DNA from: Deltaproteobacteria bacterium | GTDB taxonomy: Bacteria; UBA10199; JACPAL01; JACOUP01 | DNA: 64,000 nt | Assembly (NCBI GenBank): GCA_016177765.1 | Contig: JACOUP010000001.1 | Coordinates: 62,001 to 126,000, forward strand | Reading direction: 5' to 3' | Shown here: positions 5,058-60,635 of the stretch, in pieces | How positions within the stretch are numbered: position 1 is the stretch's first letter | Layout of the letters: each line of letters starts with the position of its first letter | Notes under the pieces: model-generated | Databases searched by the model: none | What the model was told of the DNA's origin: nothing | Seen by the model: the letters and a program-made list of their open reading frames with translations, nothing else | Made by a program: the position numbers and the translations under genes

Positions 5058-5816
5058 TTAAGGGTTCCCCTCCGCTTTGTCAAGGGGTGTTCCACCCGAG
5101 GGCGTTCCACCCGCCGGCTCCAACCCCTTCTCTACCTCCTTCAACTCCTGCAAACCTTTCTCCAAGAGATCAAGCGCCTCCCTCTCCTCGTCACCAAGAT
5201 CGGCGAGCCGAAGCGCCATTTCAGCCGTATCTTCAAACAACCCCTCCCCCTTTTCCTCCCTTTCCTCCGCCGCGGCGGCATTTTCTGCGGCGGCCTTCTC
5301 CTCAAAATCCTTCAGTGACGGCATGTCGGAGAGGTCCCTCAAACCAAAGAGGGCCAGAAATTCCGGTGTTGTGGCGTAAATCAAAGGACGCCCCGGTTCA
5401 TCCTTCTTCCCGACCACACGGATGAAACGACGCTCCAAGAGCCCCTTCAACACCGCCCCGGAATCGACCCCACGGATATGCTCCACCTCCGGGCGGGTCA
5501 CCGGCTGGCGATAGGCGATGATCGCCAAGCTCTCCAGCGCTGGTGAAGAAAGCCTCGGCGGCCGTCTCTGCTCCAGCTTCTGGACCCATGCGGCAAATTC
5601 GGGCTTCGTCCGAAGCTGATACCCCCCCGAAATCTCTTCGAGCCCAAACCCCCTCCCCTGTTCTTCATATTCCTTCTTCAGGGAGTCCAGGACCTCATGG
5701 ATGACCCCGCCGGAGATCTCCTCATCAAAGACCGCCTGGATCTCTTTAGCCGTCAGCGGTCTGCCGGAGGCAAACAAGAGGGATTCAATAACCTTCTTCA
5801 GCTCTGTATGTTCCAT
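5058..5816 (-). CDS. scpB: Segregation and condensation protein B
   Basis: 252 residues from ATG 5816 (MEHTELKKVIESLLFASGRP). ScpB is the winged-helix kleisin partner that works with ScpA and SMC in chromosome condensation. Motifs: SSPALESLAIIAYRQPVTRPEVEHIRGVDS and DEPGRPLIYATTPEFLALFGL. I chose 5816 because GGAGG lies 10 nt upstream, inside the last codons of scpA; an in-frame start at 5852 would overlap scpA. After residue 180 the tail is acidic and low complexity. Near its end lie two tandem copies of the family-A palindrome (GGTPSGGTP). Confidence 0.93.
   Translation of the reverse strand: MEHTELKKVIESLLFASGRPLTAKEIQAVFDEEISGGVIHEVLDSLKKEYEEQGRGFGLEEISGGYQLRTKPEFAAWVQKLEQRRPPRLSSPALESLAIIAYRQPVTRPEVEHIRGVDSGAVLKGLLERRFIRVVGKKDEPGRPLIYATTPEFLALFGLRDLSDMPSLKDFEEKAAAENAAAAEEREEKGEGLFEDTAEMALRLADLGDEEREALDLLEKGLQELKEVEKGLEPAGGTPSGGTPLDKAEGNP
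5085..5112. repeat. Family-A mini-palindromes (two tandem copies) in scpB
   Basis: GGGTGTTCCACCC at 5085-5097 and GGGCGTTCCACCC at 5100-5112, spaced 15 bp. They encode GGTPSGGTP in frame at the ScpB C terminus. Confidence 0.75.
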
Positions 5817-6543: not shown

Positions 6544-7554
6544 TCATACCTTCATCGCCTTTCGGACCTTCTCCATCGTATTCTGGGCAAGGGCCCTCGC
6601 CTTCTTGGCCCCCTCATCGACCATTTCATCCAGACGGCTCCCCTGTTTCAAGACTTCTTCCCTTTTTCTGCGTATCGGGTCCAGAAATTGATTGATCGTG
6701 GCCACCATCCTCTTTTTATCCTCCACGCAACCGATCTTGGCCTGACGACATTCGGCATCCACCTTCTCCACAACATCCTTGGGGGAGTGGAGTTTGTGAT
6801 AATCAAAGATAAGGCAGATATCCGGGTTCCCGGGATCTTCACGCCTCATCCGGGCCGGGTCGGTAACCGCCGACATTACCTTTTTTTCAATCGTCCCGGC
6901 ATCATCAGAAAGGTAGAGACAATTGTCATAACTCTTGCTCATCTTCCGCCGATCCATCCCCAACAGTTTGGGGGCCTCTGTCAGAAGCGGTTTCGGTTCG
7001 ACAAAAGTTTCACCATAAAGATGATTGAACCGCCGGACGACCTCGCGGGCCAGTTCGATATGGGGGACCTGATCGATCCCGACCGGGACCTTGCCCGCGT
7101 TATAAAGAATAATATCGGCCGTCTGCAGGAGCGGATAACCCAAAAAGCCGTAGGTCGAGAGGTCTTTCGTGGTCAGCTCCTGTTGCATCTCCTTGTAGGA
7201 AGGGACCCTTTCCAGCCAGGGAACAGGGGTTATCATCGAGAGCAACAGATGAAGTTCGGCATGCTCCTTGACATCCGACTGGACAAAAATTGTCGCCTTC
7301 TTCGGGTCCAAACCAACCGCCAGCCAGTCGGCCAGGATTTCCCGCCGGGATTGTCTCAATCCCTCGGGGGAGCTGTATTCCGTGGTCAATCCGTGCCAGT
7401 CGGCGATAAAAAAGAGACAGTCGTACTGGTCTTGCAGTTTCAGCCAGTTTTTCAGGACGCCATGGTAGTGACCCAGGTGGAGTCTCCCTGTTGGGCGCAT
7501 CCCTGAGACGATTCTTTCTTTGGGTGTAACACCCTTGGGTGTAACACCCTTCAT
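6544..7554 (-). CDS. trpS: Tryptophanyl-tRNA synthetase
   Basis: 336 residues, a class I synthetase that charges tRNA-Trp. HIGH-type motif HLGH at residues 26-29 and the KMSKS loop (RKMSKSYDN) near residue 208 are intact. The N terminus is odd: MKGVTPKGVTPK is encoded by two tandem family-A palindromes placed between the ATG (which overlaps the stop of the M50 gene as ATGA) and the normal beginning ERIVSGMRPTGRLHLGH. So the repeat supplied the first 12 codons or was inserted directly after the start. Function should be unaffected, as the extension precedes the Rossmann fold. Confidence 0.97.
   Translation of the reverse strand: MKGVTPKGVTPKERIVSGMRPTGRLHLGHYHGVLKNWLKLQDQYDCLFFIADWHGLTTEYSSPEGLRQSRREILADWLAVGLDPKKATIFVQSDVKEHAELHLLLSMITPVPWLERVPSYKEMQQELTTKDLSTYGFLGYPLLQTADIILYNAGKVPVGIDQVPHIELAREVVRRFNHLYGETFVEPKPLLTEAPKLLGMDRRKMSKSYDNCLYLSDDAGTIEKKVMSAVTDPARMRREDPGNPDICLIFDYHKLHSPKDVVEKVDAECRQAKIGCVEDKKRMVATINQFLDPIRRKREEVLKQGSRLDEMVDEGAKKARALAQNTMEKVRKAMKV
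7522..7549. repeat. Family-A mini-palindromes (two tandem copies) at the trpS start
   Basis: GGGTGTAACACCC at 7522-7534 and again at 7537-7549, an exact 15-bp period. Read in frame as GVTPKGVTPK directly after the first codons of trpS. Confidence 0.85.
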
Positions 7555-12024: not shown

Positions 12025-12984
12025 TTACGCCCGTGGGTGAAACTTTTTGTAGAGATCCTTGAGGTGCTTCATGCTGACATGGGTGTAGATCTCCGTTGTG
12101 GCGATATCGGCATGGCCGAGCAAGGTCTGGACCGCCCGGAGATCGGCCCCCCTTTCCAGCAGATGGGTCGCAAACGAGTGGCGGAGGGTGTGTGGTGAAA
12201 CTTTTTTGTGGATCGAACTGACCAGGGCATACCTTCTCAAAGACTGCCAAACCGCCTGACGGGTCAAACCTGTTCCCCTTTTTGAAAGAAAAATGTACGG
12301 GGACGTAGGGGCGGTTCGCGAACCGCCCTTACACTTAGCCCACCCGGTACGAACCTGTTCCAAGTAGAGCCGAACCGAATCCAGTGCCTTCCGTCCCACC
12401 GGGACAAGCCTCTCTTTATTCCCTTTTCCCAAAACAATGAGATACCCTTTTTCAAAATTGATGTCGGTCATTTTCAGGTGGACCAGTTCGGAGATCCGGA
12501 GACCGCAGGCGTAGAGGAGTTCCAGCAAGGCCCGGTCCCGGATCCCCTCCTTTTTCTGATCGGGAGGGAGGGCCAGCAATTCCTCCATTTCCGGATAAGA
12601 GAGGAGGTTCGGCAGGCGGCGGCCAATTTTGGGGAAGAGGATCGACTCGGCCGGATTTTTCTTTAAAAATTTTTCGGCGATACAATAATCAAAAAACTGA
12701 CGGAGGCTAACCAGCTTTCTTGCCAAAGAACGGGACTTGATCCCCTTTCTGGAAAGCCCAAGGAGGTATTCGGTCAGTTTTTTTTCCCCAACGGCCACGA
12801 TGGAGCCAATTTTTTTGGCCTTGGGTGAATCACCCTGGAGGAAGGAAAAGAAATGGACAAGGTCACTGGAGTAGGAGGAAACAGTATTCCAAGAGAGCCC
12901 TTTTTCGACCCGGAGATGATTGAGATAACCGTCGAGAAGAGTATCCATAGGGCTCGGGTGAATCACCCTTGAAATTGGGTTCAT
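12025..12984 (-). CDS. xerD: Tyrosine recombinase XerC/XerD
   Basis: 319 residues. XerC/D resolve chromosome dimers at dif. The SAM-like N-terminal domain (LDGYLNHLRVEKGLSWNTVSSYSSDL) and the catalytic domain are complete: Arg in LLYACGLRISELVHLK, Lys in VLGKGNKER, HTLRHSFATHLLERGADLRAVQ, GHADIATTEIYTHV with the tyrosine nucleophile. Start is uncertain: ATG 12984 includes a family-A palindrome in the leader (SRVIHPSP), ATG 12945 starts just after it. Inside the gene sit another family-A copy (QGDSPKAKK) and a family-B element (CKGGSRTAPT) in a loop before the active-site region. I cannot separate XerC from XerD. Confidence 0.93.
   Translation of the reverse strand: MNPISRVIHPSPMDTLLDGYLNHLRVEKGLSWNTVSSYSSDLVHFFSFLQGDSPKAKKIGSIVAVGEKKLTEYLLGLSRKGIKSRSLARKLVSLRQFFDYCIAEKFLKKNPAESILFPKIGRRLPNLLSYPEMEELLALPPDQKKEGIRDRALLELLYACGLRISELVHLKMTDINFEKGYLIVLGKGNKERLVPVGRKALDSVRLYLEQVRTGWAKCKGGSRTAPTSPYIFLSKRGTGLTRQAVWQSLRRYALVSSIHKKVSPHTLRHSFATHLLERGADLRAVQTLLGHADIATTEIYTHVSMKHLKDLYKKFHPRA
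12305..12332. repeat. Family-B palindrome inside xerD
   Basis: 28 bp with arms GTAGGGGCGGTTCG and CGAACCGCCCTTAC (one mismatch). It is read in frame as K-GGSRTAPT in the loop between WAKC and SPYIFLSKRG, where typical XerC/D proteins have a short variable loop. Confidence 0.75.
12823..12835. repeat. Family-A mini-palindrome in xerD
   Basis: GGGTGAATCACCC, read on the minus strand as GDSP within LQGDSPKAKK in the N-terminal domain. Confidence 0.75.
12956..12968. repeat. Family-A mini-palindrome at the xerD N terminus
   Basis: GGGTGAATCACCC, read as VIHP in SRVIHPSP between the two candidate start codons; it also lies directly upstream of the trmB promoter on the other strand. Confidence 0.75.
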
Positions 12985-29231: not shown

Positions 29232-30478
29232 TAGTAGACTATCTTCAAGGCGTAGAACCGCCCACCATTGGAGAGATAATAGACAATATCCCCGGCAACA
29301 ACCGGGTCGCTAAAAACCCCTTTTTTGGCAAACCGGCCCGCCTTGATATCCCCATTGGCGGTATTGACAAAGTAGACCTGTTTTTCCGTCGAGGCGACAA
29401 TGACTGTCGATTGTGAAACCACCGGCGCCGAGAGCGCCCCCTCCCCCACCTGTTTTTCCCAGACCTTCACCCCTGTTGCCTTGTTCAAGGCATAAAGAGT
29501 GCCGTTGGAACCGGAAACGAAAATCGTCTCCCCTTGAACGGCAAAGGAGACCCCGCTCCCGATCTGTTGTTGCCAAAGAATTTTGGGTGGCACACCCTTA
29601 GGCTCAGCCGATTTCTTCGCCGTTTTTTTGCCGGCAAGGTCAAGGCAGATCAATTCTCCCTGAAAACTGGCGGCGTAGAGACGCCCCTCATCGATCAGAG
29701 GCACCATGTCGACGTCAAAGAACGGCCCTTCGCCAGTTGCCAGATTCTTTTCCCAGAGGGGCAGGCCATCGTTTTCCCTGTAAGCAGCCAGGAGACCATC
29801 GGCAAAACCGATATAAATAACCCCATCATGGATCAAGGGGCCACTATGGTTCCGTATCGTGAATCCCTTTCTCAGGTTCAAAGGATGAGAAGCCTCCCAG
29901 ATTTTTTCCCCGGATTGACGGGAAAGGGCAAACAGTTTTCCTTCCAGCGTTGAAAAATAGACCAGATCCCCCGACACGGCTGGAGCCGCCAGGATTTCAG
30001 AACCGGTCTGGTCAAAGCGCCAAAGTTCTTTGCCATCTTTGATCGTCAACGCATAAAGAACCCCCTTGGTATCGCCAAAGTAGACGACATCATCGTCAAA
30101 GACCGGTATGGAATGGATTGGCCCGGAGGCCTTAAAACGCCAGAGCTTGTGGCCACTCTTCTGCCTCAGGGCGTAAAAGAAACCGTTGTCGGAACCGACA
30201 AAGAGGCGATCCTTGTAGATTCGGGGGGAGGCAAATTCCTTTCTCTTGTACCGGAAGAGCTTTCCCTTCTTGATCTTGCTGACCCATTTGGCCTTGAAGG
30301 GAATTTTATAATAAGGCCCTGTCCCCTTTTTGATGACCTTGACCGCGAAAACGGGCGAAGAAAAAGAGAAGAGCAAAACAAGAAACAGCCGCAGAGCGGC
30401 GTTGAGGGGGAGGCTCCATCGGGCTCTGCCCGTGGAGGGGGCGACGTGAGCCCCTTCTAAAGCCCGGCGCGTAACCAT
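29231..30478 (-). CDS. bamB: PQQ-type beta-propeller, BamB-like
   Basis: About 415 residues with seven or so PQQ/WD-like blades (DGFFYALRQKSGHKLWRFKAS; GVLYALTIKDGKELWRFDQTG; GTLYALNKATGVKVWEKQVG). BamB is the propeller of the outer-membrane protein assembly machine; the pairing with a YfgM-like gene upstream and der nearby supports that role. The signal peptide (LRLFLVLLFSFSSPVFA) is preceded by an unusual 23-residue leader from the ATG at 30478, encoded by GC-rich inverted repeats (GGGGCTCACGTCGCCCC, GGGCAGAGCCC). A family-A copy (PKGVPPK) lies in a loop. No lipobox Cys is seen, unlike E. coli BamB. Confidence 0.82.
   Translation of the reverse strand: MVTRRALEGAHVAPSTGRARWSLPLNAALRLFLVLLFSFSSPVFAVKVIKKGTGPYYKIPFKAKWVSKIKKGKLFRYKRKEFASPRIYKDRLFVGSDNGFFYALRQKSGHKLWRFKASGPIHSIPVFDDDVVYFGDTKGVLYALTIKDGKELWRFDQTGSEILAAPAVSGDLVYFSTLEGKLFALSRQSGEKIWEASHPLNLRKGFTIRNHSGPLIHDGVIYIGFADGLLAAYRENDGLPLWEKNLATGEGPFFDVDMVPLIDEGRLYAASFQGELICLDLAGKKTAKKSAEPKGVPPKILWQQQIGSGVSFAVQGETIFVSGSNGTLYALNKATGVKVWEKQVGEGALSAPVVSQSTVIVASTEKQVYFVNTANGDIKAGRFAKKGVFSDPVVAGDIVYYLSNGGRFYALKIVY
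29585..29597. repeat. Family-A mini-palindrome in bamB
   Basis: GGGTGGCACACCC, read on the minus strand as GVPP in EPKGVPPKILW, in a loop between propeller blades. Confidence 0.7.
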
Positions 30479-34816: not shown

Positions 34817-35754
34817 AGATTGATCTTGGCGAGGATCTTCGCCACCAACTCGTAAGGGTTCTCCCATACTCCCTCCTTGTTCATCCTCCGTTGCAGGCGG
34901 GGACGCAGTTCATCCAGAAGGATCTCCCTCGCCTCCTCCTGAAAAAGGGCCTTTCTCTTTTTTCCCTTTTCCGGACCCGACCGGCTCTTTTCATGTCTTC
35001 GAATCTCCTGGAGAAGTTCTCCGATCCCGATCTCTTTGGTCGCCTGAACCAGCAAGACAGGAGGTTTCCAGGGTGTGCCACCCGAGGGGGCTTCGCCTCT
35101 TTTCTTTGTTTCCTCACCAAGTTGCAACATCGCCATTAGTTCTGCCTGGATCTGGCCCGCCCCATCCCGGTCTGCCTTGTTGACGACAAAAATATCCGCT
35201 ATTTCTAAAATTCCCGCCTTCATTGTCTGGATCGTATCCCCCGATTCCGGAGTCAAAACAACCAGTGTTGTGTCGGCCACCTCCATAATATCCAGTTCCG
35301 TCTGCCCGACACCGACCGTCTCCACAATCACGATATCCATTCCGAAGGCGTCGTAGAGTTTAACTACCTCACGGGTTGCGCGTGAGAGGCCGCCGCGGCT
35401 CCCGCGGCTTCCGAGACTCCGGATAAAGACTGCCTCATCGGTCGCATGGTCCTGCATCCGGATCCGGTCCCCCAAAACCGCCCCGCCGGAAAAGGGGCTG
35501 GAGGGGTCGATCGCGACGATCCCGATCTTTTTCCCTTCTGCCCGGAGGTTCTTTGTCAGTTTATCAACGAGCGTGCTCTTTCCGGAACCTGGTGGTCCGG
35601 TCACCCCGATGGTGGTGGCCTGGCCACAATGCTTTTGGATCTCTGCCATCAGGGCCAAATGACCGTTCGATCGGTTCTCGACCAGGGTGATCACCCGTGC
35701 CAGCGCCGCCTTGTCACCGGAGAGCATTTTTTTGATCAGTTCCCGCGAGGACAT
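34813..35754 (-). CDS. meaB: MeaB/ArgK-type G3E GTPase (methylmalonyl-CoA mutase chaperone)
   Basis: 313 residues from ATG 35754; the TTG at 35793 is discarded since it lies within the promoter. P-loop GVTGPPGSGKSTLVDKL, AIDPSSPFSGGAVLGDRIRM, ETVGVGQTE, and NKAD identify MeaB, which loads and protects adenosylcobalamin in methylmalonyl-CoA mutase. No mutase gene is in the window. A family-A copy (RGEAPSGGTPWKPPV) is inserted just before the conserved W-x-PPV strand. Downstream ALDH overlaps by 4 nt. Confidence 0.94.
   Translation of the reverse strand: MSSRELIKKMLSGDKAALARVITLVENRSNGHLALMAEIQKHCGQATTIGVTGPPGSGKSTLVDKLTKNLRAEGKKIGIVAIDPSSPFSGGAVLGDRIRMQDHATDEAVFIRSLGSRGSRGGLSRATREVVKLYDAFGMDIVIVETVGVGQTELDIMEVADTTLVVLTPESGDTIQTMKAGILEIADIFVVNKADRDGAGQIQAELMAMLQLGEETKKRGEAPSGGTPWKPPVLLVQATKEIGIGELLQEIRRHEKSRSGPEKGKKRKALFQEEAREILLDELRPRLQRRMNKEGVWENPYELVAKILAKINL
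35071..35083. repeat. Family-A mini-palindrome in meaB
   Basis: GGGTGTGCCACCC, read as GGTP immediately before WKPPVLLVQATKE; MeaB homologues normally run straight into the WxPPV segment. Confidence 0.75.
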
Positions 35755-35811: not shown

Positions 35812-36471
35812 ATGTATCAAACTCTCCTCGATTCCATCTCCCAGATTCCTGGTATCCGGATCATCAAACGTGGCTGGCGTCTCCCGATTTTGATCATTCC
35901 TCCGGAACAGCTCACCATCATCCCCCCCCTTTTTTTACGCCTTGTCTCTCTCTTCATCGATAGCCAAGGGTCACTCCATTACGAACTGAACAGCCCCGGT
36001 TATGCCCGTTTCCCCTGGGGTTTCGAGTTTTGGCGGGTCCTGTTTAACCCCAAGCGGCATTTTCTGAAACTTCCGGAAAAGATGATCCAGACCAGTTTTC
36101 TGAAATCGGAGAAAAATCTGATCGGCGGGGTCCATTTTACCTTTGATCCGAAAACAAGGGGGATTGAGGTCCAGAACATTGGGGTCCTCTCGCGAAAGGA
36201 TTTTGCAAAAAGGTGCCAGGCACCGGAGGAAATAGGGTGGTTCACCCAAAGGGACAAGGCGTTTGCCACACTGCATCAGGAGTTTGACCGATTTTCCCAT
36301 CACGTCGGGGCCCGGTCGGCCATCTGCTCCACCTTGACCATCCCCGCCGAAAAACTGGCCCGGTTTGGCTGGAAAAAGATCAAACTCCTCAGTTTTACCC
36401 AGAAACTTCGTTATGGGTGGTCGTCATTCCCGATTCAGGGGCAAGACCATTACCTAAAAAACTTTATATAA
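35812..36471 (+). CDS. Hypothetical protein
   Basis: 219 residues from ATG 35812 (MYQTLLDSISQIPGIRIIKR); the open frame back to 35446 runs antisense to meaB and is not used. Mixed alpha/beta composition, no membrane segment, no family recognised. Segments such as GFEFWRVLFNPKRHFLKLPEKMIQ and GVHFTFDPKTRGIEVQNIGVL look globular. It carries two repeat-derived inserts close together: GGTGCCAGGCACC (read as RCQAP) and a family-A copy GGGTGGTTCACCC (GWFT). A hairpin at 36487-36526 may end the transcript. Confidence 0.7.
   Translation: MYQTLLDSISQIPGIRIIKRGWRLPILIIPPEQLTIIPPLFLRLVSLFIDSQGSLHYELNSPGYARFPWGFEFWRVLFNPKRHFLKLPEKMIQTSFLKSEKNLIGGVHFTFDPKTRGIEVQNIGVLSRKDFAKRCQAPEEIGWFTQRDKAFATLHQEFDRFSHHVGARSAICSTLTIPAEKLARFGWKKIKLLSFTQKLRYGWSSFPIQGQDHYLKNFI
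36212..36247. repeat. Two different mini-palindromes within the 35812 gene
   Basis: GGTGCCAGGCACC at 36212-36224 and family-A GGGTGGTTCACCC at 36235-36247, both read through in frame (RCQAPEEIGWFTQR). The second is read in the frame where the standard copy would have TGA; here it is TGG. Confidence 0.7.
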
Positions 36472-38789: not shown

Positions 38790-39286
38790 CGTCGTCCCCT
38801 CCACTCTCTGGCCAAAAGATCGTAACTCTCTTTAATATGCTGGGGCATCTGTTTCGTGGAGGCCAAGACCGGCATGAAATTGGTATCCGCCTCCCAGCGC
38901 GGAACGATGTGAAAATGAATATGGTCGGCAATCCCGGCCCCTGCCAGTCTTCCCTGGTTGATGCCAATATTGAAACCGTCAGGATGAAGGGTCTTCTTCA
39001 ACCGGACCACCGCCTCCTGGATCGTCTGCGTTACTTCCAGCATTTCATCGTTCCGCAGACCGGTTATTTCCGACAGATGCCGCCGGGGAACGACCATGAG
39101 ATGACCATTATTATAAGGGTACTTGTTCAGGACGACAAAACAGGAGTTCTTGCGGGCCAAGACCAGATTCTTTTTATCCTTTTTTTCACGAACCATCCGG
39201 CAAAAGACACAACCCTTGGGTGAATCACCCCTGGGTTTCTTGCCCAGGATGAACTCCATCCTCCATGGGGCCCAGAGAACTTTCAT
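38786..39286 (-). CDS. HIT-family hydrolase or Ap4A phosphorylase-like protein
   Basis: 166 residues. Histidine triad HIHFHIVPRW at 122-131 and N-terminal LWAPWRMEFI with CVFC zinc pair. The motif set (APWR, H-x-H-x-H, GxNxGxxAGAGIxDHxHxHxVPRW) matches the bacterial APA2/FHIT-like branch that splits dinucleoside polyphosphates or acts as an adenylyltransferase. A family-A palindrome is inserted between KKPR and CVFC (RGDSPKG). It starts 6 nt after ihfB and overlaps lapA by 4 nt. Confidence 0.93.
   Translation of the reverse strand: MKVLWAPWRMEFILGKKPRGDSPKGCVFCRMVREKKDKKNLVLARKNSCFVVLNKYPYNNGHLMVVPRRHLSEITGLRNDEMLEVTQTIQEAVVRLKKTLHPDGFNIGINQGRLAGAGIADHIHFHIVPRWEADTNFMPVLASTKQMPQHIKESYDLLAREWRGRR
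39218..39230. repeat. Family-A mini-palindrome in the HIT gene
   Basis: GGGTGAATCACCC, read as GDSP in KPRGDSPKGCVFC, just before the zinc cysteines. Confidence 0.75.
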
Positions 39287-42274: not shown

Positions 42275-43609
42275 CTAGTCCCCAATTTCCCTGACCGAAC
42301 CGGTCAGCCTTCTCAGGAGGGGGACAAATGTGGGGAATGAAGTCCCGATACAATCGGTATCCTGCACCCGCATGATCCCCTCCCCCAACAATCCGGCAAT
42401 GGTCAGTGACATGGCGATTCGGTGATCCCCGTAGCTCTTGACCGGTCTCCCCTTGAAACGACGTTCCCCCCTGATTTTGAGTCCGTCGACAAGTTCTTTC
42501 AGGGCGCCGCCAGCCTTCGGGTGAATCACCCTTGAGAATTCGGTGGCCATCGCCTTGATCCGGTCCGTCTCCTTCACCCTCAATTCGGCCGCATCCTGAA
42601 TGATTGTTTCCCCTTTCGCCATCAGGGCCGCAAGGGCGAGGATCGGAATCTCGTCGATCAACCGGGGGATCAGGGCCCCCCTGATCGCTGTCCCTTTAAG
42701 GACTGAGGGGAAAACCTTCAGATCAGCCATCGGCTCACCCGCCACAATCTTCTGTTTCTCCAACTGGATCCTCCCCCCCATGATTTTAATCACATCCAGA
42801 AAACCGGTACGGGTCGGGTTAATCCCGACGCCGCGGATCGTCAGACTCTTTGTCTTGAACGATTGAAGGAGGGAGGCCACGACAAAAAATGCCGCCGAGG
42901 AGAGATCCCCTGGCACCAAAACCCGGATCCCCTTTAATTTCTGCCCCGCCACGAGTGTTGTTTTTTTTCCCTCTTTCTTCAAAGAGAGTCCGAAGGCGGA
43001 GAGCATTCTTTCGGTATGGTCACGGCTAGGCGTCGGTTCGATCACCGTTGTCGGCCCTGTCGCACAAAGGCCGGCGAGCAGAATGGCGGACTTGAGTTGG
43101 GCCGAGGCAACCGGCAGGGTGTAAGAGATCCCCTTTAAAGGAGATCCCTTGATTCGGATCAGCCGCAAATCATTTTTCTTTTCTTCAACGATCCTGGCCC
43201 CCATCCTTTGAAGAGGTTCAATAACCCTTCCCATCGGCCGCGCATTCAGAGAGGCATCCCCCGTCAGGACCGATTGAAAAGGTTGGCCGGAGAGCAACCC
43301 GGTCATCAAACGAAGGGTTGTCCCTGAATTGCCGCAATAAAGAATCTTTTTGGGGGCCCTCAATCCGCGAAGCCCAACCCCCTTGACCCGCCATTGTCCC
43401 GGTCTCTGTCTTGTAATCGTCACCCCGAGTTCTTTGAGGATCTCCACTGTTTTCATGACATCGTCCGCCTCCAAAAGCCCGGTAATTTGCGTGATCCCTT
43501 CGGCAATCGCGCCAAAGATGAGGGCCCGGTGGGAGATCGATTTATCTCCGGGAACCGTAACAACCCCGGCCATTGGTTTTCTAAGAGGCGAAATAATGAG
43601 TGACTTCAT
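42275..43609 (-). CDS. aroA: 3-phosphoshikimate 1-carboxyvinyltransferase (EPSP synthase)
   Basis: 444 residues. It joins shikimate 3-phosphate and phosphoenolpyruvate. Motifs: VPGDKSISHRALIFGAIAEG, YCGNSGTTLRLMTGLL, the basic ARPMGRVIEPLQRMGA, and RVKETDRIKAMATE. A family-A copy (SRVIHPKAGGAL) lengthens the loop after that last motif. Its ATG overlaps the tyrA stop (ATGA), forming pheA-tyrA-aroA, three shikimate/aromatic steps in one unit. Confidence 0.97.
   Translation of the reverse strand: MKSLIISPLRKPMAGVVTVPGDKSISHRALIFGAIAEGITQITGLLEADDVMKTVEILKELGVTITRQRPGQWRVKGVGLRGLRAPKKILYCGNSGTTLRLMTGLLSGQPFQSVLTGDASLNARPMGRVIEPLQRMGARIVEEKKNDLRLIRIKGSPLKGISYTLPVASAQLKSAILLAGLCATGPTTVIEPTPSRDHTERMLSAFGLSLKKEGKKTTLVAGQKLKGIRVLVPGDLSSAAFFVVASLLQSFKTKSLTIRGVGINPTRTGFLDVIKIMGGRIQLEKQKIVAGEPMADLKVFPSVLKGTAIRGALIPRLIDEIPILALAALMAKGETIIQDAAELRVKETDRIKAMATEFSRVIHPKAGGALKELVDGLKIRGERRFKGRPVKSYGDHRIAMSLTIAGLLGEGIMRVQDTDCIGTSFPTFVPLLRRLTGSVREIGD
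42519..42531. repeat. Family-A mini-palindrome in aroA
   Basis: GGGTGAATCACCC, read as VIHP in FSRVIHPKAGGALKE. Confidence 0.7.
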
Positions 43610-44613
43610 GAGAGTTTCTCTTTCAACTTTTTAACGGAGGCAAAGGTACGCTCTAGCTCCTTCCCTTCTCTTCGAAGAATTTTCTTCTTGAGGAGGGTCA
43701 ACTGTTTTTGAAAGGCCTCTACGGCCTGGACAATGTTTTCACTGTTTTCCACCGAGATATCCCGCCACATCTGCGGGGAGCTGGCAGTCACCCGGGTGGC
43801 GTCACGAAGAGATCCTTGGGTGGCGCACCCTTGGGTGGAACACCCTTGGGTGGCACACCCTTCCAGCCATTGACGGACCTCACTAACACCGCCGATTGAT
43901 TGCGTCACCACCGGCAACAGACTGTAGGCGATCATATGGGGCAGATGGCTCGTGAAGGAAAGGATCCGGTCGTGTTTCTTTGGATTCATCGGTTGAACCG
44001 TGGCCCCGAGACGACGCCAGAGTTTTTCGATGCGATGGAGAACGGCACGGGCTGTTCCTGGGAGTGGCATCAGAAGACACCGCCTTCCTTTAAAGAGCTT
44101 TGGGTCGGCCCCACCAATCCCGACCTTCTCCGTCCCGGCAATCGGGTGGGCCCCAACGTAAAAACTCCTTTTCGGCAGCCCCTTGGCCGCCGCCCGGACG
44201 ATTGTCTCTTTTGTACTCCCGACATCCATGAAGATCAGCCCCTTTTTGCAGGAAATTTTGTTTTTCACCTTCCGCAGATTTTTAAAAAAGAGGCGGATTT
44301 CGGAGACGGGGATGGCGAGAATAATGAGATTGGAAGGTGGGTCCTGGCTCCGGGTCGCCCTGTCCCTCGTGCTCAGGCACTGCCATAAGGTTGAGGGTGT
44401 TACACCCAAGCCTTCGCTTTCGGCCCAGGACTCCCCATCGCCACCCACCTTCGCATCAATCATCCCCAATCTTTTTGCAATCCTCAATGTCTTGGCATCC
44501 CGATCAAGCCCAATGACCTGACGGGCGACCCGATTCTTCTTCAAGGCCCAGGCGATCGATCCGCCAATCTGACCGAGCCCGACCACAACCACTTTATTAA
44601 AAAGAAAATTCAT
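43606..44613 (-). CDS. tyrA: Prephenate dehydrogenase with repeat-derived insertions
   Basis: 335 residues from ATG 44613 (MNFLFNKVVVVGLGQIGGS), 19 nt after pheA. It oxidises prephenate to 4-hydroxyphenylpyruvate in tyrosine synthesis. The NAD motif is GLGQIGGS; VGAHPIAGTEKVGIGGADPKLF and SFTSHLPHMIAYSLLPVV are substrate-site segments. Two regions are unusual. About 25 extra residues after GMIDAK (ESWAESEGLGVTPSTLWQCL and RDRATRSQ) include one family-A copy. Three tandem family-A copies at 15-bp period give GCATQ-GCSTQ-GCATQ in the C-terminal helical domain. The frame stays open through both, so the gene is probably functional. Confidence 0.93.
   Translation of the reverse strand: MNFLFNKVVVVGLGQIGGSIAWALKKNRVARQVIGLDRDAKTLRIAKRLGMIDAKVGGDGESWAESEGLGVTPSTLWQCLSTRDRATRSQDPPSNLIILAIPVSEIRLFFKNLRKVKNKISCKKGLIFMDVGSTKETIVRAAAKGLPKRSFYVGAHPIAGTEKVGIGGADPKLFKGRRCLLMPLPGTARAVLHRIEKLWRRLGATVQPMNPKKHDRILSFTSHLPHMIAYSLLPVVTQSIGGVSEVRQWLEGCATQGCSTQGCATQGSLRDATRVTASSPQMWRDISVENSENIVQAVEAFQKQLTLLKKKILRREGKELERTFASVKKLKEKLS
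43818..43860. repeat. Three tandem family-A mini-palindromes in tyrA
   Basis: GGGTGGCGCACCC, GGGTGGAACACCC and GGGTGGCACACCC, each joined by TT, period 15 bp, encoding three five-residue units (GCATQ, GCSTQ, GCATQ). All three are read in the frame in which the standard copy would carry TGA, but have TGT or TGC instead. Confidence 0.85.
44395..44407. repeat. Family-A mini-palindrome in the tyrA insertion
   Basis: GGGTGTTACACCC, read as GVTP in the extra segment after the first NAD-binding helices. Confidence 0.7.
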
Positions 44614-44632
44614 AAAATATATTTTCCCTGGA

Positions 44633-45733
44633 TTATGAACTCTTGGGATACGAACCAAGAACTTTTAAGAAGTGACATTTCAACTCCAGGGCCCGGATCG
44701 CCTTTTGAATCTTTGTTTCCTTCTGATGTCCCTCGATATCCAGAAAGAAGATATACTCCCATTTTCCGAGCGGCAACCGTCCGCTTTTCAAACGAGCCAA
44801 GGGACGGGATTCAATCTTGGTCAGGTTGATGCCGGCACGGGAAAACGGCTCCAGCATTTTGTAGAGGATGCCGGGCTCGTCCTTGACAGAAAAAAGAAGC
44901 GATGTTTTATCGTGCCCGGAGGGAGACATCACCTTCCGCCCGATCACCAGAAAGCGCGTAAAATTATTGGGGTGATCCTCGATAGAGCGTTTGAGGATTT
45001 TAAGATTGTAAAGTTCCGCGGCATATTCGCTCGCGATAGCGGCGCTTCCTTTTTCTTCAGCCGCCCTTTGAGCCGCCGCGGCGGTGCTTTCCACTTCCCG
45101 AATCATGGCATCGGGACAATTCTCCTCCAACCACTCCCGGCACTGACCGACCGCCTGGGGATGAGAATAAATCCTGCGAATTTCTCCCGAACGGAGACTG
45201 GCCCTGGCCATTAGATGATGGGAAATCGGCAAGGTAATCTCGGCAGAAATTTTGAGGGTTGCACTCAAAAACTGGTCAAGCGTCTGGCCGACAACCCCCT
45301 CTGTGGAATTTTCAATCCCCACGACGCCAAATTCGGCTCTTGAATGCTCAACCTCCTCAAAAACCTTGGCAATGGAGCCTTGGGGCACCAACTCGGCGGA
45401 CCGTCCAAAATGCCGGAGCGCCGCCACGTGCGTGAATGTCGCCGCCGGACCCAGGTAGGCCACCTTCATCGGGGCTTGCATCGCCAGGGAAGCGGAAAAA
45501 ATCTCCTTAAAGACGACGGGAACGGCATGATTCGGAAAAGGCCCCTTGTTTAAACTCTTGAGTCTCTCCAAAATCTTTTTTTCCCGGTTGGGGGAATAGA
45601 ACTCGTCGCTGGTTTCCTTCTTGAAGGAACCTATTTTTTGAACAATCCGGGCCCGGTCGTTGAGGAGTGAAAGGATCTTTTGATCGATCCGGTCAATCGC
45701 CCGGCGCAGTCGAGTCAGTTTCTCTTTGGACAT
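44633..45733 (-). CDS. pheA: Bifunctional chorismate mutase/prephenate dehydratase
   Basis: 366 residues. AroQ chorismate mutase at 1-85 (LTRLRRAIDRIDQKILSLLNDRARIVQKIG), prephenate dehydratase at 90-275 (VAYLGPAATFTHVAAL; GIENSTEGVVGQTLDQF; the catalytic-loop motif NNFTRFLVIG) and a C-terminal ACT domain (KTSLLFSVKDEPGILYKMLEPFSRAGINLTKIESRP), which gives feedback control by phenylalanine in the family. No Shine-Dalgarno; a promoter at 45742-45770 puts transcription start at the ATG. First gene of pheA-tyrA-aroA. Confidence 0.97.
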   Translation of the reverse strand: MSKEKLTRLRRAIDRIDQKILSLLNDRARIVQKIGSFKKETSDEFYSPNREKKILERLKSLNKGPFPNHAVPVVFKEIFSASLAMQAPMKVAYLGPAATFTHVAALRHFGRSAELVPQGSIAKVFEEVEHSRAEFGVVGIENSTEGVVGQTLDQFLSATLKISAEITLPISHHLMARASLRSGEIRRIYSHPQAVGQCREWLEENCPDAMIREVESTAAAAQRAAEEKGSAAIASEYAAELYNLKILKRSIEDHPNNFTRFLVIGRKVMSPSGHDKTSLLFSVKDEPGILYKMLEPFSRAGINLTKIESRPLARLKSGRLPLGKWEYIFFLDIEGHQKETKIQKAIRALELKCHFLKVLGSYPKSS

Positions 45734-45792: not shown

Positions 45793-45820
45793 GGGTGTGT
45801 CACCCAAGGGTGATTCACCC
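45793..45820. repeat. Two family-A mini-palindromes at the end of dedA
   Basis: GGGTGTGTCACCC at 45793-45805 and GGGTGATTCACCC at 45808-45820, 15-bp period. The second supplies the dedA stop codon (TGA, 45817-45815). Confidence 0.85.
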
Positions 45821-52351: not shown

Positions 52352-54427
52352 TTAACGAATCTCCGCACCCAATTTGTTTCTGGCCCGATCGATCACCTGT
52401 TGATGAAACCGGTTTACCTCTTCATCCGTCAACGTTCGGTCTTTGGCCAAATACCGCACCCGGTAGGCCAGAGACTTTTTCCCCTCAGGAACGGGTGATT
52501 CACCCATCCCCTTCCCCTGATACAGATCAAAAAGGGTAACCTCTTCCAGGGGACAGGCGGTTGTCTCCAGGGCCTTTTGAATCTCCAGTGCCGGGAGGGT
52601 CCGATCCACCAGAAGACAGATATCCCTTTCAACCCAGGGGAAGCGGGAAACCTCCTGAAACAGCCTCCTTGCAGGAATTGCGGCCACCAGAGGGTCAAGA
52701 TCAAATTCAAAAAGATACGGCTCAAACCGTATCCCCATCTCAGCAATCGTCAAAGGATGGAGGGCCCCCAAAAAACCGATCGTTTGATCCTTTAACCTCA
52801 AGTCGGCAGATTTTCCGGGATGGAGAAAAGATTGAGTCCCCTGTTCATAGGAAACATCGGGCGCCCCGATGGTTTTCAGGAGCGACTCGACAACCCCTTT
52901 GAGTTCTCTGAAATCGACCCTTTGTTTTTCTCCCTCAATCTCGACAGGCATCCGCGGACCGGAAAGAATCCCCGCCACCCGTCTGGTCTCCACCACTTTT
53001 TCCCCCTCTTGAGAAAAAACCTTCTGGCACTCAAAGAGTCGAAGCTCACTATTTTGGTGGCTCTGGTTGTACACCAAGGCCTCTACAATTTGAGGGGTTA
53101 GCATCGGGCGAAGGAGCGAGTCTTCCTGGCTGATCGGATTGGCAATAGAAACCGCCTTTGCCGGAAGCCCCGGATTAAACCGCCGAAGGAGGAGAGGAGA
53201 GACAAAACTGAAAGAAACCGCCTCTGAGAATCCAAGGTTTTTGAGTAATTGACGGATTTCCTTTTCAGCAGGCCGCACGGAGAGAAGATTTCTCTTCTGA
53301 GGTTTTAAGACCGGAAGCGTTGTCGGGATTTTTTCATAGCCATGAAAACGGGCCAGTTCTTCAATGAGATCGGTATCCTCGGTCAGATCCGAACGGTAGG
53401 AAGGGACTTGGAAAGTAGGGGCGCGATTAATCACGCCCTTACAAACTAAACCGAGAGCGGACAGTGATTGCCTGATAGAGGCTGGTTTCAAGTCGGTCCC
53501 CAAATAACGATTCACCCTTTCCGGCGTCAGGGAAATAACACGAGATCGCCTTTTCTGATTTTTGACCTCCCCGGCACCCGCAAGAACCCCCCCTCCCCCG
53601 ATCGCACCAATCAGCTGGACAACACGAGTCAGGGCAAGCGGGATCCCTTCAAAATCAACCCCTCTTTCAAACCGAGTGGAGGAATCGCTGATCAAACCCA
53701 ACCGACGGCTGGCCCGACGGACAGTGGAAGGATTAAAAAAGGCGCTTTCCAGGACAATCGTTGTCGTCGCCTCGGTCACGGAAGATTCCTGACCTCCCAT
53801 CACCCCGGCGATCGCCATCGCCCCTTCCTTGTCCGCAATGACAAGATCCTCGCCAAAGAGTTCTCTCGTCTGGTTGTCCAGTGTGAGGATCGCTTCACCG
53901 CCAACAGCATGCCTCACAATAATAGTCTGCCCACGGATCTTATGATAGTCAAAGGCATGCAGGGGTTGACCCCTTTCCATTAAAACATAGTTGGTGGCAT
54001 CGACAACATTGTTGATCGACCGTATCCCGACCAGGGCCAATCGATCCTTGAGCCAGGAAGGACTCGGGGCTATCCGCACCTTTTCGAGAACGGCATAGGC
54101 ATACCGCGGACAATCTTTCTTGGCGAGAACACGGAGTTGTAAGGGCAGACCCATGTGTCTGCCCTGACAAGAAGGGCGGCCACGCGGGACCGCCCCTACC
54201 CTCTTCAGCGGGACCCCGGTTACCGCCGCAACTTCACGCGCAATCCCCAAAATAGAGAGGCAGTCCCCCCGATTGGGGGTGATCGCTATTTCAAGAATCG
54301 TCTCTTCACCGATTTTCTCCAGAGATTCAATTTCAAAACCGGTAGCGGTCAATCTTTCCGACACCTGTGCCGGATTCCAGCGCAGTGAAGGGACAAATTC
54401 TTTGAGCCAGCTATAGGGTATTTTCAT
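52352..54427 (-). CDS. pheT: Phenylalanyl-tRNA synthetase beta subunit, lacking the tRNA-binding OB domain
   Basis: 691 residues against about 790-800 usually. The beginning MKIPYSWLKEFVP...ERLTATGFEIESL goes directly to EIAITPNRGDCLSILGIAREVA, so the EMAP/TRBD OB fold (about residues 40-150 in E. coli) is absent. The B3/B4, B5, core and C-terminal FDX-ACB domains remain (LFDLYQGKGMGESPVPEGKKSLAYRVRYLAKDRTLTDEEV). Three repeat inserts are in frame: two family-B elements at GRPSCQGRHMGLP, one at CKGVINRAPT, and a family-A copy at GESPVP. Start overlaps the pheS stop (TAATG). Confidence 0.95.
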   Translation of the reverse strand: MKIPYSWLKEFVPSLRWNPAQVSERLTATGFEIESLEKIGEETILEIAITPNRGDCLSILGIAREVAAVTGVPLKRVGAVPRGRPSCQGRHMGLPLQLRVLAKKDCPRYAYAVLEKVRIAPSPSWLKDRLALVGIRSINNVVDATNYVLMERGQPLHAFDYHKIRGQTIIVRHAVGGEAILTLDNQTRELFGEDLVIADKEGAMAIAGVMGGQESSVTEATTTIVLESAFFNPSTVRRASRRLGLISDSSTRFERGVDFEGIPLALTRVVQLIGAIGGGGVLAGAGEVKNQKRRSRVISLTPERVNRYLGTDLKPASIRQSLSALGLVCKGVINRAPTFQVPSYRSDLTEDTDLIEELARFHGYEKIPTTLPVLKPQKRNLLSVRPAEKEIRQLLKNLGFSEAVSFSFVSPLLLRRFNPGLPAKAVSIANPISQEDSLLRPMLTPQIVEALVYNQSHQNSELRLFECQKVFSQEGEKVVETRRVAGILSGPRMPVEIEGEKQRVDFRELKGVVESLLKTIGAPDVSYEQGTQSFLHPGKSADLRLKDQTIGFLGALHPLTIAEMGIRFEPYLFEFDLDPLVAAIPARRLFQEVSRFPWVERDICLLVDRTLPALEIQKALETTACPLEEVTLFDLYQGKGMGESPVPEGKKSLAYRVRYLAKDRTLTDEEVNRFHQQVIDRARNKLGAEIR
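52493..52505. repeat. Family-A mini-palindrome in pheT
   Basis: GGGTGATTCACCC, read as GESP in GKGMGESPVPEGKK in the FDX-ACB domain. Confidence 0.7.
53415..53442. repeat. Family-B palindrome in pheT
   Basis: 28 bp, arms GTAGGGGCGCGATT and AATCACGCCCTTAC (two mismatches), read in frame as CKGVINRAPT in the B5 region (LGLVCKGVINRAPTFQVPSYRSD). Confidence 0.75.
54139..54199. repeat. Two adjacent family-B palindromes in pheT
   Basis: 54139-54168 (arms GTAAGGGCAGACCCA/TGTGTCTGCCCTGAC) and 54171-54199 (GAAGGGCGGCCA...GGACCGCCCCTAC), back to back, encoding about 20 residues (VGAVPRGRPSCQGRHMGLP). Confidence 0.8.
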
Positions 54428-59832: not shown

Positions 59833-60635
59833 CAGTTCACCCCATGCTTGAAGCCGAGAAAGGTCAGCGCAATCACCGCGACACCCAACAAGGAAAGAAA
59901 AAGTGCGCGACGTCCCCGCCAGCGGGAACGGCTGTGAAGATTTAAGAAAGCCAGATAGACGATCCAGGCGATCCAGGCCCCCCACTGTTTTTGGTCCCCC
60001 ATAAAAAAAGAACCGAGGACCTCCCTGGGTGAATCACCCTTGGAGAGTCCAAAGCCGGCGAGGATCCCCAACGTGAGGAGTCCGAAACCGATCGCCGAGG
60101 TCCGGCTATGCATCTGGTCCAAGGCCTCCAGCGAAGGGAGACGAAGATACGGCGCCTTTTGATTTTTAAGCCTCGCCTGCTGAAGGACAAAGGCGGTCGC
60201 CATGCCGAGGCCGAGAAGAAAGAGGGAAAAGGCCAAAAACATGGCTATGAGGTGGGCCAACGCCCAGGGGCTCTTCAAGACAGTGGCGCTGAAACGGTAC
60301 GCCTCCTGATCCAAAAGGGAGATCAGGTAGAAAAGGAGCGCCGTCGGGATAAAAAGCGGCCCGGCCGCCTCCAACCGGAGTTTTCGTGAAAAAACAAGGA
60401 AGAAAAGCAAGATCACCCAGGAAACAAAATGGAGGGAGTAATTGGCGGAGACAAAAAACGGGTACTGGTTGCGGAACAGGTAATAAAAAAGAAGCAGCGT
60501 GTGGAGCAAGAAGCCGATGGCGAGTATTCGGTAGGCGACGCGGTTAAAATTTTTCTTAAAGATATACTGAAAAAGATAAACCAGGGTCGCCCCCAGATAA
60601 AAGGTCATCACGCCAAGGATGCAGGACAGATGCAT
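59832..60635 (-). CDS. ccsA: Cytochrome c assembly protein CcsA/HemX-like
   Basis: 267 residues with eight membrane helices. HemX/CcsA pattern: FVSANYSLHFVSWVILLFFLVF, LIAMFLAFSLFLLGLGMATAFVLQQARLK, MHSRTSAIGFGLLTLGILAGFG, and WGAWIAWIVYLAFLNLHSR. Predicted to act in haem handling for cytochrome c or in regulating HemA. A family-A copy adds GDSPR in GFGLSKGDSPREVLG, in a loop between helices. Starts 1 nt after the cysG(N) stop and overlaps hemA. Confidence 0.92.
   Translation of the reverse strand: MHLSCILGVMTFYLGATLVYLFQYIFKKNFNRVAYRILAIGFLLHTLLLFYYLFRNQYPFFVSANYSLHFVSWVILLFFLVFSRKLRLEAAGPLFIPTALLFYLISLLDQEAYRFSATVLKSPWALAHLIAMFLAFSLFLLGLGMATAFVLQQARLKNQKAPYLRLPSLEALDQMHSRTSAIGFGLLTLGILAGFGLSKGDSPREVLGSFFMGDQKQWGAWIAWIVYLAFLNLHSRSRWRGRRALFLSLLGVAVIALTFLGFKHGVN
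60027..60039. repeat. Family-A mini-palindrome in ccsA
   Basis: GGGTGAATCACCC, read as GDSP in LSKGDSPREVLG between membrane helices. Confidence 0.75.

Follow-up and report, generated by a model that had tools for sequence, protein, structure and literature searches.

The window, a 64,000-nucleotide stretch of DNA, carries the prephenate dehydrogenase gene tyrA, in which three palindromes of the form GGGTG-NNN-CACCC occupy positions 43818-43830, 43833-43845 and 43848-43860. They are separated by the spacer TT and follow each other at an exact 15-bp spacing, and the minus strand reads GCATQ-GCSTQ-GCATQ, just as the initial annotation had described. Compared with 29 aligned homologs, TyrA has exactly 15 extra residues at this otherwise ungapped place. 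The same unit recurs across the window, where 18 exact copies of GGGTGNNNCACCC are found and 0.11 are expected from shuffled sequence. The two copies reported in trpS (7522 and 7537) are present as described. The recurrence claimed for scpB stands in part; the copy at 5085 is perfect, but its partner at 5100 has a mismatch in one arm (GGGCG...CACCC) and the spacer GA instead of TT. The units and their hosts are listed here, with details in parentheses.

5085-5112, minus strand: a perfect and an imperfect unit at the scpB C-terminus (the family relative has an orthologous array with a paired arm change)
7522-7549, minus strand: two trpS units directly after the start codon, MKGVTPKGVTPK (homology to relatives starts downstream of the units)
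12823-12835, minus strand: first unit in a tyrosine recombinase gene (QGDSPK)
12956-12968, minus strand: second unit in the same tyrosine recombinase gene (RVIHPS)
29585-29597, minus strand: unit in a BamB-like beta-propeller gene, KGVPPK (gap in the family relative's ortholog)
35071-35083, minus strand: unit in a MeaB-family gene
36235-36247, no strand assigned: unit outside called genes
39218-39230, minus strand: unit in a HIT-family gene
42519-42531, minus strand: unit in the EPSP synthase gene (aroA)
43606-44658, minus strand: host gene tyrA, prephenate dehydrogenase (PDH_N and PDH_C families)
43818-43830, minus strand: TyrA insert, unit 3 when counted along the gene, with GGGTGCGCCACCC in the coding strand (sequence, homolog alignment)
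43833-43845, minus strand: TyrA insert, unit 2 (sequence, homolog alignment)
43848-43860, minus strand: TyrA insert, unit 1 (sequence, homolog alignment)
44395-44407, minus strand: fourth tyrA unit, LGVTPS (within a 28-residue insertion missing in homologs)
45793-45820, no strand assigned: tandem pair (45793 and 45808) where a VTT/DedA-type gene has its 3′ edge; the stop codon of this gene lies at the array edge
52493-52505, minus strand: unit in the phenylalanyl-tRNA synthetase beta gene
60027-60039, no strand assigned: unit outside called genes

The 28-residue insertion around 44395 holds a single unit, and its length is not a multiple of five. The initial annotation had passed over this fourth tyrA copy and the tandem pair at 45793/45808.

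The TyrA palindromes belong to a genome-wide, 15-base, self-complementary unit with hundreds of insertions, single or in tandem, in one little-known bacterial family. The window's own genome (G000; 1.92 Mb, 96.5% complete) contains 340 exact copies vs. three of a reversed control. The sole family relative compared (G001; 82% complete, from another genus of the family) contains 79. Across 58 further relatives the counts are 0-6 per genome, close to their controls; among the genomes counted, only these two carry the unit above background. When 85k genomes were scanned for the tandem pair, three loci came back; records very near the window's genome may be missing from this set. One is in the family relative, from a genome with 79 copies at coordinates identical to those of G001; one, in Lachnospiraceae, is a piece of a longer degenerate repeat; and one, in Alphaproteobacteria, is an isolated array in a genome with six copies in total. 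The tandem pattern was absent from the viral contigs searched, and we found no mention of GGGTGATTCACCC in the literature searched.

The anatomy of the unit was read directly from 1.37 Mb of the 1.92 Mb of G000, which hold 253 copies. The 5-3-5 layout is strict, with 253 copies at a gap of 3 vs. 3-5 copies at gaps of 1, 2 or 4. The oriented consensus is AA-GGGTG-NTT-CACCC-RAGG, and clean single copies have AA on the left flank and RAGG on the right. The orientation of the loop follows that of the flanks; AA_AA occurs with NTT 42 times and with AAN once, and TT_TT occurs with AAN 53 times and with NTT three times. A, G and C all occur at the N of the loop, whereas T is seldom seen there, also outside genes. 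Many singles have AA on both sides (2-bp flanks match in 27 copies vs. 20.4 expected, P = 0.011), and no target duplications of 3-8 bp were found at the copies. Within the same 1.37 Mb, distances of up to 120 bp between copies are almost entirely 15 bp (61 pairs), 30 bp (20) or 45 bp (3), with only three others. A single unit is predicted to fold into a 5-bp hairpin of −7 kcal/mol, and the TyrA array into a structure of about −30 kcal/mol, modestly better than shuffles.

The arms are the most conserved part of the unit. In five units shared by the two genomes, chosen for their resemblance, differences number 3/50 in the arms, 22/83 in the flanks and 6/15 in the loops. The doubly changed form GGGCG...CGCCC occurs 28 times vs. 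4.7 for the control, and the two one-sided changes occur nine and four times. This pattern suits either recognition as a palindrome or self-templated correction, between which the data do not separate. Some related structures were seen in the same genome. Several units (G000:C1:129651, C2:15016, C2:28229, C2:44298) have the same CCATTGTGTGA on their outer side, within a neighbouring unit that is degenerate, which suggests a longer related repeat. At G000:C1:30847-38867, segments of 600-770 bp are repeated in a row, and two of them carry a unit at the same place. Other 5-3-5 palindromes, e.g., CCGCC...GGCGG, were also noticed.

The evidence for insertion extends from TyrA to the orthologs of the two genomes, compared in 159 pairs with a median identity of 73%. 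The initial annotation had proposed the insertion of a fixed, frame-preserving unit, and this is borne out both by the 15 additional residues of TyrA and by orthologs that differ at unit sites by 5, 10 or 20 residues. Unit sites fall in ortholog gaps in both directions, and 11 inner gaps are exactly five residues long. At sites, 14 of 30 gaps have a length divisible by five, and away from sites 33 of 289 do (P = 9e−6). Roughly half of the site gaps thus have other lengths, for which neighbouring drift and alignment error may be the cause. We take the host proteins at these gaps to include phosphoglycerate kinase, ribosomal proteins, methionyl-tRNA formyltransferase and UMP kinase. Since the orthologs differ by whole units, the repeat family was born by insertion and is not a point-mutation motif. 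A few units are common to both genera, and these are therefore older; most positions are not shared. Movement of the unit is what we infer from these sequence comparisons.

Most copies lie in genes. Using a simple home-made gene caller, 193 of the 253 copies (about 76%) fall in called genes, with a coding fraction of 0.83. The reading frame of 145 of these 193 gives KG(D/G/A)SPK, and the other two frames account for 32 and 16. Copies with an oriented loop are mostly in the sense direction (134 of 178, with 44 antisense, both genomes together), and the first and last tenths of the proteins hold 77 of the 193 in-gene copies. This placement fits insertion followed by the removal of harmful cases, and a target preference may contribute to the frame and strand bias alongside selection. 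The TyrA array sits in the rarest frame, in which a loop beginning with A would create a stop codon. The RNase P gene was also located, as a possible insertion host.

How the arrays grow is a separate matter. The initial annotation had proposed copy-number expansion by slippage. Copy number does change at a shared site, where one ortholog has one unit and the other has two, but slippage is not borne out as the general route. Recent slippage would give neighbouring units like loops, but of 61 neighbouring pairs 12 have identical loops vs. 10.2 expected; common-loop neighbours are as different as random pairs (NTT loops, 9 of 34 identical vs. 10.6). On a fair reading, the arrays reflect mostly separate gains, with some local duplication. 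Uncommon loops do cluster in neighbouring units (three identical pairs vs. 0.49 expected), and the overall Hamming distance between neighbouring loops is 1.13 vs. 1.37 (P = 0.0018), although a shared reading frame may account for part of the clustering. Local duplication may account for a minority of the arrays, the one in trpS perhaps among them. The TyrA loops (TGC, TTC and CGC) are all uncommon, and thus local duplication with drift is possible for this array in particular. We consider it unlikely that tandem slippage or unequal exchange, multiplying one unit per locus in 15-bp steps, explains the family as a whole. The exact period, the clustered uncommon loops and the one-versus-two ortholog pair agree with it, but 145 dispersed single copies are left unexplained, and the G001 sample (305 kb, mostly contigs picked for having sites) is nearly without tandems, with one pair among 49 copies.

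The conserved arms and paired arm changes would also be expected of a selected site for protein binding, uptake or chromosome organisation, in which the arms are the recognition sequence, and the lineage-specific abundance resembles that of uptake or HIP-type motifs. Motifs of this kind are generally believed to originate chiefly through point mutation, whereas the orthologs here differ by whole inserted units and the two genera share few positions, and we give this explanation little credence. An excision footprint is less probable again. A cut-and-paste transposon with GGGTG...CACCC ends, leaving the loop as filler and AA as a target duplication, would account for the fixed layout with its variable centre and for the matching 2-bp flanks. 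The loop, however, is not random filler, since NTT predominates and its N is hardly ever T; the flanks are often unequal, with no longer duplication. In 1.37 Mb of G000, self-BLAST and a search for inverted ends recovered neither a parent transposon nor any element bounded by GGGTG-type inverted ends; the inverted pairs recovered were pairs of units themselves. Least probable of all is a REP-type element moved by a RAYT (Y1 transposase). The unit is a high-copy, hairpin-forming palindrome and G000 has three Y1_Tnp genes, but no Y1 gene was found in G001 at 82% completeness, and the two G000 genes inspected are flanked by other palindromes, GGTACCSGGTACC and GTGCCTGGCAC, and not by the 15-bp unit (the third is at G000:C8:833546). 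REPs are also extragenic, in contrast to the mostly intragenic unit. The GGTACCSGGTACC palindrome family, whose copies are separated by TTTTGGCCAAAA-like spacers, flanks the Y1 gene at C3:20333 (G000:C3:20158-21760; also C2:111764-111802), and together they resemble a REP/RAYT pair of the usual sort. The Y1 gene with GTGCCTGGCAC-type palindromes close by is at G000:C8:481451-482100.

The reading we favor, with a probability of roughly 0.7, is that the unit is an oriented, palindromic insertion element of very small size, consisting of the 13-bp GGGTG-NTT-CACCC and 2 bp that are usually AA (15 bp in all), which has spread through the family. New units would enter at AAGG-like sites. The AAGGG edge of a unit already in place would be one such site, and insertion there would produce head-to-tail arrays with a 15-bp period. 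Local duplication may also enlarge a minority of arrays. Genes would tolerate the unit since the frame is kept and the commonest frame gives hydrophilic, KGDSPK-like peptides, and selection would purge bad frames, strands and positions. Correction templated by the hairpin might keep the arms palindromic, or the arms might persist through being recognised as a palindrome. More doubtful, and proposed only tentatively, is that a dedicated and hitherto undescribed insertion process adds these frame-neutral 15-bp hairpins at AAGG-like sites, some of them beside earlier units, and thereby keeps putting KGDSPK-like peptides into the core proteins of this one family.

The unit can be compared with several known repeats, of which the Rickettsia palindromic elements and the cyanobacterial small dispersed repeats come closest. 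Rickettsia palindromic elements (RPE) are lineage-restricted, in-frame palindromic inserts in conserved protein genes (PMC10969869, PMC2229807). The 15-bp unit is likewise palindromic and in frame within conserved protein genes, but RPE are about 105-150 bp (PMC2229807, PMC10969869) with a long stem-loop, whereas the unit has a 5-bp stem, is oriented and forms exact 15-bp tandem arrays. The cyanobacterial small dispersed repeats (SDR) are described in PMC4390886, which cites Elhai 2008, as very small and considered mobile, with SDR5 entering a target motif at a precise point. The 15-bp unit resembles them as a very small dispersed element gained by insertion. SDR are 21-27 bp long, and neither tandem arrays of 15-bp period nor a habit of coding in frame is known for them. 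REP and REPIN sequences are short, high-copy, hairpin-forming palindromes, some of them in tandem, that are extragenic and linked to RAYTs (PMC3116915). The unit is also short, high-copy, hairpin-forming and partly tandem; it differs in being mostly intragenic (193/253), and no link to a RAYT was found at the two Y1 genes inspected. HIP1 and DNA uptake sequences are short motifs over-represented genome-wide, genes included (PMC4390886), as is the unit, but gain of a unit is a 15-bp insertion that changes length, as seen in TyrA and the ortholog gaps. Palindromic repeats also occur in organelle genomes; the LIMP of Lobosphaera mitochondria, for example, are short and repetitive, keep one loop length and are found in one lineage (PMC4524435). 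The unit shares the fixed loop length and the confinement to one lineage, but LIMP are always intergenic, with a conserved loop and a variable stem, whereas the unit has a variable loop and a fixed stem. We have filed it as a small palindromic insertion repeat without assigning it to RPE, SDR or REP/REPIN.

To our knowledge, the 15-base unit is among the smallest insertion-like repeats. If it is an insertion element, its size would be far below that of the best-known palindromic inserts that keep the frame, and it would have spread into core genes (TrpS, TyrA, EPSP synthase, phenylalanyl-tRNA synthetase and others) with their frames uninterrupted. Its copies would offer a testable case of palindromes in which the arms are kept while the loops drift, and would form a natural record of protein sites that tolerate five-residue insertions.
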